Origin: Pseudodesulfovibrio sp. JC047 | Lineage (GTDB): Bacteria > Desulfobacterota > Desulfovibrionia > Desulfovibrionales > Desulfovibrionaceae | DNA: 64,000 bases | Assembly: GCF_010468615.1 (NCBI RefSeq) | Contig: NZ_WUEH01000008.1 | Span: forward strand, 62,001-126,000 | Direction: 5' to 3' | In this document: positions 50,686 to 53,687 of the stretch, piece by piece | Layout of the letters: every line of letters starts with the position of its first letter | Numbering within the stretch: position 1 is the first letter of the stretch | Notes under the pieces: model-generated | The model's input: only the letters and a program-made list of their open reading frames with translations | Told to the model about the DNA's origin: nothing | Database searches by the model: none | Program-made: the position numbers and the translations under genes

Positions 50686-51495
50686 ATGAATACAAACAAA
50701 ACCCTCAGCCTTGCCATCATGAGCGGTAAAGGTGGCGTGGGAAAAACTAATATTGTTCTCAATTTAGGATATGCCCTTCAGCAGGCTGATAATACGGCCG
50801 TCCTCATGGATTGTGATCTTGGTCTGGCAAATCTCGATGTACTGCTCGGCATTTCGCCCGAACTGAATTTGCGGGATCTACTTCAATCAGATGTTGATGC
50901 TGCCGATGTCCTCGTTCCAATAGAATCCGGTTTTGACATGCTCCCGGCAACCAGCGGTGTCCCTGAATTGGTTGAAATGGACGAGGACGTTCAAGATATT
51001 CTGTTCAAAAAACTCCTGACCATAGCAGGACGATATGATTACCTCATGCTCGATCTCGGGGCTGGAATCAGTCCGACGGTTTTGTCACTGGCAGCGTTGG
51101 CTCAACTTCGAGTCGTTGTCATTACCCCGGAACCGACCTCTTTGACCGACAGCTACGCGATGATAAAAGTTCTGACCACACACTATGGAATCAAGGACTT
51201 TCTTGTCGTGGTCAATCAAGCCTTAAGCGCGCAAGAAGCCCGACAAACATTCGATCGACTTGCTGCGGCCTGCAAGAATTTTTTGCATATTGAATTGCAA
51301 AACCTCGGTTTTGTGCACCAAGACACAACGTTGGTTGAATCGGTGCGACGCCAAACGCCGTTGATGAAATATGCTCCTAACGCTCCGGCCAGTAAGGATA
51401 TTTTCAGTCTTGCCAGAAAGATTATGCGATATCGAAAAGGCAATTCTGAACGAATCGCGGAACGACCAATTTTGAAAAAATTTCAAAGTGAATGA
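50686..51495 (+). CDS. MinD/ParA-type ATPase, FlhG-like
   Basis: The 269-residue ATPase has the deviant Walker A 'IMSGKGGVGKTNIVLNLG' (11-28), 'VLMDCDLGLANLDVLLG' and 'YDYLMLDLGAGISPTVLSLA', typical of FlhG (YlxH/FleN) and MinD. The GLANLDVLLG stretch is characteristic of FlhG, which sets flagellar number with FlhF. The C-terminal amphipathic helix is short and basic. It begins 12 bp after the diguanylate cyclase, suggesting a motility/polarity link, though flhF is not here. MinD or ParA roles remain possible. Confidence 0.82.
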   Translation: MNTNKTLSLAIMSGKGGVGKTNIVLNLGYALQQADNTAVLMDCDLGLANLDVLLGISPELNLRDLLQSDVDAADVLVPIESGFDMLPATSGVPELVEMDEDVQDILFKKLLTIAGRYDYLMLDLGAGISPTVLSLAALAQLRVVVITPEPTSLTDSYAMIKVLTTHYGIKDFLVVVNQALSAQEARQTFDRLAAACKNFLHIELQNLGFVHQDTTLVESVRRQTPLMKYAPNAPASKDIFSLARKIMRYRKGNSERIAERPILKKFQSE

Positions 51496-51540: not shown

Positions 51541-51631
51541 TAGTGAGAATTTTGGAGAGTGACATAATTTCCATTTTTTCGCAGAGCCTGAACATGGCTG
51601 TGCGATTCAAGCAAAGTTTCAGGGGGAAACT

Positions 51632-51907
51632 ATGAACAAGAGCGAATTAATCAAGGCTCTGTCGGAAGAAAAAAAAATGCACGTTGACGAGGCCACCAAA
51701 GTGGTCGGCGCTTTCGTCGATTCTGTCAAAGAAGCCTTGCGGCGCGGTGATCGTGTCGAGATCAGAGGTTTCGGCAGCTTCAAGATAAAAGACTATGAAG
51801 GCTATACCGGCCGCAATCCCAAGACCGGTACCGTTGTTCAGGTCAAACCTAAAAAACTTCCCTTCTTCCGTCCTGGTAAAGAGTTGAAAGAATTTATCAA
51901 CCAATAG
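51632..51907 (+). CDS. HU/IHF family DNA-binding protein
   Basis: The 91-residue protein starts MNKSELIKALSEEKKMHVDE and carries the HU/IHF arm 'IRGFGSFKIKDYEGYTGRNP' and 'PFFRPGKELKEFI'. The 'GRNPKTGT' hairpin with a proline at the tip is as in IHF and HU. It is only about 40 % like the HU at 38522-38794 by eye, so it is a paralogue, not a duplicate. AGGGGG lies 6 nt before ATG. The following exported protein gene starts 1 bp after its stop. Confidence 0.93.
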   Translation: MNKSELIKALSEEKKMHVDEATKVVGAFVDSVKEALRRGDRVEIRGFGSFKIKDYEGYTGRNPKTGTVVQVKPKKLPFFRPGKELKEFINQ

Positions 51908-51908
51908 G

Positions 51909-52769
51909 ATGCGACGAATTTCATATTGCCTTTTGGTGGCAGTCTGGATATTCGCGAGCGCAACTGCGTGGGCGAAAGATCCAGTTCTGACGTTACTTTA
52001 TTCGGCAAATACGTATGGCTCGGTACGTCCATGCCCATCCTGAGGAGGTAAAACCCTCGGTGGCATGGCCCGTCGGGCCACGTATTTTTTTGATGCTCGG
52101 GCATCCACACCATCGCTGTTTCTCATTTCGGGAGCGTGGGAATTCATGCGGCCTCAGGGCACGCTTGCATCCACCTCTGTGCTTCGTTCGCATATTCGGG
52201 CGTACTCGTTCATGCAGTACGACATCGGTTTTGTATCTAAAGAAGAAAAGGACATACTTGCTCAAAAAGGAATGCAGCGTCCGTCATGGCAACAATCGCA
52301 TGACGAGGCACCGGTTACTTTTCTGACAACGAAAACGGGAGATAAAGTCGCGTTTGTCCGATTTCCTTCCCTGCCTCCTGGTGAGGACACCCCGAATACA
52401 CAATTGATCACGCACATCGAACAATCCATCAAATCGGTTACCCCACAGGTTCAACTGGTTGTCGGAATATCCGATTGGGGGTGGCTTGGTGAAAATGAAT
52501 ATTTACGGAACAATTCTCGTTATGTCCCTGACGTGCTTTTGGGAAGTGGCCGTGGTTCGGGTCTCAATGGCCGTCTTCTCGCTGAAGACAGATGTATTTG
52601 GGTTCGTCCTTATGACAAAGGACGAAGTCTCTGCAAGGTCCAGATATTCGAATGGCCTACACGCAAGAATTCGTTTGCATGGAGCGTCTCAAAGAACTAT
52701 AACACATCCTCAATAGGACTGAACGACACCTATGCTGACAATCCGGACGTGGCTGCTTTTTTTGAGTAG
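51909..52769 (+). CDS. Candidate selenoprotein, UshA-like exported protein (in-frame UGA = Sec45)
   Basis: ATG 51909 opens a frame with a clear signal peptide (MRRISYCLLVAVWIFASATA) that meets one TGA at codon 45 (52041-52043) and otherwise runs uninterrupted to 52769, 286 residues. The sequence around it, 'GSVRPCPS-U-GGKTLGGMA', resembles the Cys motif followed by GGLARRAT in UshA-like/5'-nucleotidase-related proteins of Deltaproteobacteria. Downstream 'SGAWEFMRPQG' and 'VVGISDWGWLGE' sit where metallophosphoesterase motifs (GD, H) would be, but the metal ligands are missing, so it is probably not a nucleotidase. A SECIS-like hairpin follows the TGA. C-P-S-U would make a CxxU redox pair. Function unknown; likely periplasmic. 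Confidence 0.78.
52041..52086 (+). promoter_or_regulatory. Candidate bacterial SECIS element with UGA(Sec) codon
   Basis: The UGA is followed after 28 nt by the apical loop GUC (52072-52074) of a hairpin with stem TGGCCC (52066-52071) / GGGCCA (52075-52080), extendable outward by one C-G pair past an A-C mismatch. The loop begins with G and lies within the 16-37-nt window of bacterial SECIS elements. An alternative pairing GTGGC/GCCAC (52060-52064, 52077-52081) gives a larger loop. Confidence 0.62.
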
Positions 52770-52805
52770 TGCGTATTCGGTTTACAGATACACAAGGAGA
52801 TGACT

Positions 52806-53687
52806 ATGGAATTCAGAGGAGCCTATACCGCCCTCTCGACCCCATTCGTGAATGGGGAAATCGATGAAACAGCGTACAGAGAATTTATCGATTGGCAAAT
52901 CGAGCAAGGAATTAACGGCTTGGTCCCATGTGGAACCACGGGTGAAGCAGCAACCTTGACGCATGAAGAACAGGGGCGAATCATTCGAATTTGCGTTGAG
53001 CAAGCAAAAGGCCGCGTGCCCGTGATTGCAGGAGCCGGTTCCAACTCAACCAAGGAAGCGATCGCTCTGACTCAGATGGCCAAAGACGCCGGAGCCGATG
53101 CCGCTCTGCAAATTACGCCGTATTACAACAAACCCACTCCGCAAGGACTTGTAGAACATTTCAAGGCTATTGCCGCTGAAGTATCCTTGCCGTTCGTTAT
53201 TTATAATGTTCCAGGTCGTACGGGGCTCAATTTGTTGCCGGCACACCTGAAAATGATCGTTGACGCTGTTCCTGAAGCAATCGCCGTCAAAGAGGCAACC
53301 GGTAATTTGAATCAGGCCGCACAAGTCATTGAACAGTGTGGAAAGGACTTCAATTTGCTGTCCGGTGATGATTTTACGGTTCTCCCGCTTCTTGCTGTTG
53401 GCGGTGTCGGCGTCATTTCTGTGGTTTCCAACATCATGCCGCGTGCCATGAGCGATATGTGTGCAGCATTTTTCAATAATGAACATGAAGCCGCCTTGGA
53501 TTTGAGCTTGAAAATGGCTCCGGTCAACCGTGCCATGTTCATGGAAACCAATCCCATTCCGGTTAAAACGGCTTTGGCGATGATGGGGATTTTCAAAAAT
53601 GCACAGTTCCGTCTGCCGCTCGTTTCCTTGCAGGACGAGAACAAACCCAAACTGAAATCCGTGCTCAAAACAGCCGGTCTTTTGTGA
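52806..53687 (+). CDS. dapA: 4-hydroxy-tetrahydrodipicolinate synthase
   Basis: The 293-residue TIM-barrel aldolase condenses pyruvate with aspartate semialdehyde for lysine and diaminopimelate. Catalytic residues are Thr44/45 in 'PCGTTGEAATL', Tyr133 in 'IYNVPGRTG' and Schiff-base Lys162 in 'VKEATGN'. ATG 52806 is preferred over ATG 52800 because AAGGAG (52794-52799) is 6 nt from the former and adjacent to the latter. DapA feeds both protein and peptidoglycan synthesis. Two tandem terminators follow. Confidence 0.95.
   Translation: MEFRGAYTALSTPFVNGEIDETAYREFIDWQIEQGINGLVPCGTTGEAATLTHEEQGRIIRICVEQAKGRVPVIAGAGSNSTKEAIALTQMAKDAGADAALQITPYYNKPTPQGLVEHFKAIAAEVSLPFVIYNVPGRTGLNLLPAHLKMIVDAVPEAIAVKEATGNLNQAAQVIEQCGKDFNLLSGDDFTVLPLLAVGGVGVISVVSNIMPRAMSDMCAAFFNNEHEAALDLSLKMAPVNRAMFMETNPIPVKTALAMMGIFKNAQFRLPLVSLQDENKPKLKSVLKTAGLL

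Follow-up and report, generated by a model that had tools for sequence, protein, structure and literature searches.

A Pseudodesulfovibrio gene of the UshA-like (seleno)protein family 2: an in-frame UGA probably read as selenocysteine in a domain without its nucleotidase metal site

The window analyzed here, a stretch of 64,000 nucleotides from Pseudodesulfovibrio sp. JC047, contains a long reading frame for an apparently exported protein that is interrupted by a single TGA. Is this codon a stop, or is it read as selenocysteine (Sec), and what would the full-length protein do? Based on sequence comparison, we assign a probability of about 95% to an exported selenoprotein in which UGA codon 45 is read as Sec, and the use of Sec appears near certain on comparative grounds. 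The function that we propose for the protein is graded separately below.

The gene and its family

Translation of positions 51909 to 52769 yields 286 residues followed by a TAG stop, and the sole internal stop is the TGA at codon 45. The first-pass annotation had described the same frame of 286 codons from ATG 51909, as well as a signal peptide, and the N-terminus is indeed signal-peptide-like by eye. When the TGA is read as a stop, the product is cut at codon 45. Features of the gene are:

51909..52769, forward strand: probable selenoprotein gene, UshA-like (seleno)protein family 2, 286 aa with Sec, TAG stop (translation, profile match, homologue rows)
51909..51974, forward strand: signal-peptide-like N-terminus, codons 1-22, ending in AWA (by eye; helix 2-17 in the predicted model)
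52032..52034, forward strand: codon of Cys42, first half of the CxxU pair (Cys in 86 of 88 aligned family rows, one Ile, one gap)
52041..52043, forward strand: UGA codon 45, probably read as selenocysteine

The TGA lies in the context R-P-C-P-S-U-G-G-K, which contains the CxxU motif C42-P-S-U45. One detail had to be corrected: the GGAGG after the TGA, at first noted as too far from ATG 52065 for a usable Shine-Dalgarno sequence, represents the codons for the Gly-Gly that follows Sec, the first of which is conserved in 85 of the 88 rows.

The read-through product matches NCBIfam family NF049981 with 319.3 bits (cut-off 140, E 1.9e-95) over positions 1-261 of the 262 of the model, which bears out the proposed UshA-like class. 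All 73 aligned members, the window protein included, matched this model again at E ≤ 0.001. The window protein also carries the CxxU/CxxC motif that characterizes the family, and no difference from NF049981 was found. In a Pfam scan, no family matched the window protein, and none matched more than two of the 73 members at E up to 1. The plasmid collection searched, from which near records may be left out, contained no relative. A 2026 review tables NF049981 among the selenoproteins annotated in GenBank, in an entry that gives its motif (CxxU) and accession but no function (PMC13188914); an older UshA-like relative with motif CxU was tabled in 2008 (PMC2398784). In the literature passages searched, neither a function of NF049981 nor a link to cytochromes was found. 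Since the family is curated in NCBIfam and tabled in the review, the kind of selenoprotein represented by the window gene is already known, and the novelty of its identification is low, which leaves its correctness unaffected.

The reading of codon 45

Homologues were searched in 98 related genomes, the own genome included, of which 71 contained a family match (76 match rows). In 71 of the 76 rows, the match is interrupted by a single TGA and by no further stop; two of these rows are upstream pieces of broken copies (G009 and G044). The other five comprise two Cys forms (a second copy in G037 and the copy in G042), two downstream pieces of broken copies and one weak fragment (G085, E 6.6e-4). 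For the alignment, loci were drawn from the best 30 of the 98-genome search, the best 30 of a sample of the host's family, 20 loci without a stop in the match and 20 selected for spread or as broken copies. Six partial matches and 15 identical copies were dropped, leaving 88 distinct family sequences, the window sequence included; Cys rows were partly picked on purpose and the 67:20 ratio of Sec to Cys forms is not a census.

At codon 45, 67 rows have TGA, 19 TGC and one TGT, with a gap in the last, so that every one of the 87 rows with a letter carries TGA or a Cys codon. Cys codons in relatives, initially put forward as support for Sec, were thus recovered in 20 of the 88 rows, and position 45 is invariant in the alignment of the 73 members. 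Selection on the protein is visible on both sides of the codon. Among 145 non-independent pairwise comparisons of Sec forms, pN/pS amounts to 0.15 upstream of the UGA (codons 24-44), 0.16 for codons 46-52 and 0.25 to 0.39 beyond. Codons 46-52, which lie between the TGA and the in-frame ATG 52065 (codon 53), are therefore under strong constraint at the protein level.

These data bear on two readings without Sec, both of which we regard as extremely improbable. A separate protein starting at ATG 52065, from which the frame is open for 234 codons, would have neither the signal peptide nor the first strand of the domain, would follow codons that are among the best conserved, and would begin at a position that is Met in only eight of the 88 rows (Leu 48, Val 28, Ile 2, other 2); none of these rows is an intact homologue that begins after the TGA, and L101, the only row with a gap, represents a fragment of a broken copy. 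Alternatively, the TGA could be a true stop, making the gene a decaying pseudogene or the source of a 44-residue secreted peptide. Broken copies do occur in two of the 98 genomes (L100 in G009, L101 in G044), yet they amount to no pattern of random stops, the sign of decay that had been named beforehand. In G009, selA and selB are likewise each found in two pieces, so the breaks in its family copy may be assembly errors, while G044 possesses an intact second copy. Against a true stop also stand the recurrence of the TGA at this codon in 67 distinct sequences, the constraint on either side and the Cys in 20 others. Neither an internal start nor decay explains the constraint around the UGA together with the scarcity of Met at codon 53.

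The machinery for Sec insertion is available to the host. All four genes proposed for checking, selA, selB, selC and selD, were found in the own genome, each over the cut-off of its family; selC is a tRNA-Sec with a TCA anticodon, and selD itself has one in-frame TGA. A TGA-bearing match occurs in 70 of the 98 genomes and selA in 66 of these 70. Among the four genomes with a TGA form and no selA match (G056, G068, G076 and G095), selB exceeds the cut-off in three, while the fourth, which is 67% complete, has a selB fragment below it. Genome G042, with neither selA nor selB over the cut-off, has a Cys form as its single family copy.

In the mechanism that we propose from the sequence, SelB and Sec-tRNA would read UGA 45 as Sec under the direction of a hairpin located 28 nt downstream:

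52066..52080, forward strand: candidate bacterial SECIS (bSECIS) hairpin core, 6-bp stem with the 3-nt loop GUC (52072-52074), 28 nt after the UGA (published model, PMC13188914; the stem is also terminator-like)

The stem arms span 52066-52071 and 52075-52080, and the core is built from the codons for Ala-Arg-Arg-Ala. As an Rfam search of 51600-52900 gave no match, the SECIS was tested by script. The bSECIS model given in the review specifies a loop of 3-9 nt with an early G, a stem of 4-16 bp, a spacing of 16-37 nt and a minimum free energy ≤ -7.5 kcal/mol (PMC13188914). The window hairpin agrees with it in loop (GUC), stem (6 bp), spacing (28 nt) and energy (local hairpin of -11.9 kcal/mol).

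Without anchoring, hairpins separate the two groups poorly: the best local hairpin has -14.1 kcal/mol in Sec forms versus -13.7 in Cys forms, a hairpin with G in the loop is found in 67/67 and 19/20, respectively, and the mean z against synonymous shuffles is -1.0 versus -0.2. The window's own hairpin (z -1.03) was reached by 17% of 60 synonymous shuffles. At the anchored place, chosen after it had been seen in this unanchored folding test, the model with the loop 28 nt after the UGA is found in 61 of the 67 Sec forms and in 0 of the 20 Cys forms. A stem of at least five pairs is present there in 62/67 Sec and 0/20 Cys forms; elsewhere in the Sec genes, 146 of 18738 codon positions have one. 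The model is missed at that place by six Sec forms, three of which are stemless there. Arg56 is kept in all 87 rows, and it is encoded by CGG in 58 of the 67 Sec forms (19% at other Arg positions) and in four of the 20 Cys forms (25% elsewhere). Given the stem and the CGG bias in Sec forms at a residue that all forms keep, the RNA itself seems to be selected, beyond the protein, where UGA is used.

In the window, the stem is followed by a T run (52066-52090), and together they score as terminator-like. Three such sites are found in the region, versus 1.8 (sd 1.7) in shuffles, and the hairpin might accordingly be read as an intrinsic terminator instead of a SECIS. That the stem keeps a fixed 28-nt spacing in Sec forms, is absent there in Cys forms, and precedes a T run made of Tyr-Phe-Phe codons makes a terminator very improbable.

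A predicted nucleotidase fold without its metal site

The predicted structure of the window protein (mean pLDDT 94.1, pTM 0.90) has the fold of the N-terminal metal domain of SoxB, CD73 and UshA, with a best Z of 25.1 (rmsd 2.5, 239 residues). These COG0737-type metallo-hydrolases share the predicted fold at Z of about 22-25. SoxB occupies the top row in a tie with others, and the Z of 25.1 is obtained both with SoxB and with a 5'-nucleotidase. Such a common fold by itself indicates no function.

The metal ligands of nucleotidases lie in the motifs NDxH, GD, GNHE, H and GHxH. We read the eight corresponding metal-site positions from ten true nucleotidases of related genomes, all of which keep every position. 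The window protein keeps 0 of 8, which upholds the suspicion of the first-pass annotation that these ligands were lost. Over 87 family rows, all that remains at these positions is three Asp, one His and one Asn. The C-terminal nucleotidase domain (PF02872) gave no Pfam match in the window protein and none anywhere in its own genome. In the alignments and the predicted model, the mature protein consists of the N-terminal metal domain of 5'-nucleotidases alone, with the metal site gone and Cys-Pro-x-Sec in the loop after the first strand. The window protein thus differs from UshA, CD73 and SoxB in having no metal ligands and no recognizable C-terminal domain, and in having CxxU.

A selenoprotein that is still a metal-dependent phosphoesterase or a thiosulfohydrolase-like enzyme would fit the high Z to SoxB and to the 5'-nucleotidase. 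The loss of all eight metal-site positions, the sparse remnants in the family and the missing C-terminal domain argue against such an enzyme, which we consider improbable.

A closer comparison is offered by the sister family NF041198 (PCGU), which shares the N-terminal domain with the window protein and has Sec or Cys in the same loop, mostly within PCGU. The window protein scores 35.5 bits against this model, versus a cut-off of 275, and its CPSU is a CxxU rather than the CxU (PCGU) motif of the sister family. Some metal ligands are partly kept in NF041198, whereas all are lost in the window protein. We examined 26 sister or intermediate loci (L132-L151 and L156-L161), of which 17 were extracted by motif and eight more in addition; L142 was left out and L160 repeats L140. 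Four CxxCH heme motifs were found in 14 rows (one being the repeat) and were absent in 11, with one locus not extracted. Among the 13 loci over the NF041198 cut-off, 11 have the four motifs, L146 has none and L142 is the one not extracted; the window protein has no cytochrome domain. The one NF041198 member scanned matched Cytochrome_C554. The own genome encodes a stand-alone Cytochrome_C554 protein (L152, G000:C14) that matches the C-terminal part of NF041198. L136, a locus over the cut-off with four heme motifs, has P-S-G-R at the usual loop and thus no Cys or Sec there.

Of the hints at a redox role, the cytochrome fusion of NF041198 is the best, yet it comes by analogy from the sister family. 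In the periplasm, the Cys-Pro-x-Sec pair would act as a reversible selenol/thiol redox couple that exchanges electrons or disulfides with a second protein; to judge by the cytochrome fusions of the sister family, this partner might be a c-type cytochrome. Of the redox pair in an exported protein that had been proposed at the outset, the CxxU motif itself stands, whereas the periplasmic selenol/thiol function is one to which we give roughly even odds. The folds of SelW-like and AhpD-like proteins differ from that of the window protein. These are separate families that resemble it in CxxU and in having Cys-containing relatives (motifs per PMC2398784), and the likeness is a functional analogy only.

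One Sec form, L099 (G060), has I-K-A-U in place of C-P-x-U and hence no first Cys. A Cys-Sec bond is consequently not universal in the family, and Sec alone may suffice in L099.

CPxC-type motifs are able to bind metals. The CxxU pair could therefore bind a metal or a selenium compound, as in a chaperone or sensor, with no redox exchange, and no redox partner was recognized beside the gene. On the other side, cytochrome fusions predominate in the sister family, and Cys42 is missing in L099 while position 45 is missing nowhere. We consider metal or selenium binding a minority possibility, though one with an appreciable share.

Genomic place, spread and meaning

The gene has a conserved place, with the following neighbours:

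50686..51495, forward strand: ParA/MinD-type ATPase, upstream (present in 82/87 rows)
51632..51907, forward strand: HU-type DNA-binding protein, upstream, one base from its stop to the ATG (conserved; ≤ 300 nt upstream in 77/87 rows)
52800..53687, forward strand: DapA (DHDPS), downstream (≤ 200 nt downstream in 57/87 rows, flanks being limited)

The end of the selenoprotein gene is 30 bases from dapA. None of the three neighbours, HU, DapA and ParA, suggests a redox role. Of the 20 Cys rows, 16 likewise have HU at most 300 nt upstream; the Sec and Cys versions therefore share one place across genera. The Sec/Cys tree has three changes as drawn, of which well-supported branches force only one, and in a tree with no outgroup we claim no direction of change.

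At four loci of genus g40 (L062, L063, L064 and L081), Cys and Sec copies stand in tandem after the HU gene, and the tandem Cys copy has no SECIS stem at the usual place. Cys paralogues L066, L067, L068 and L069 form a group of their own away from the HU-DapA place, among genes that are prepilin-like by eye, with N_methyl matches in the scanned neighbour genes of L066 and L069 and an AAA ATPase near L068.

Taken at its most specific, our proposal is that an ex-nucleotidase domain which gave up its metal site acts as a periplasmic selenol redox carrier working with multiheme c-type cytochromes, with Sec and Cys swapped at the HU locus. We offer this tentatively, as a possibility that is rather doubtful as a whole.

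Weaker matches of the window protein in sampled order-level relatives show members outside the host family too. At E up to 0.001, the NF049981 model matches 122 of the 297 genomes sampled across the phylum, the weak remainder shading into NF041198-like proteins; over the cut-off, it matches four, all in the host's family.

At this locus, the enzyme site has been lost and the Cys-Sec pair persists; in the sister family, most members are linked to a cytochrome. If confirmed, the redox role would give a testable function to a family found over the cut-off in 131 of the 199 genomes sampled from the host's taxonomic family (4/297 phylum-wide).
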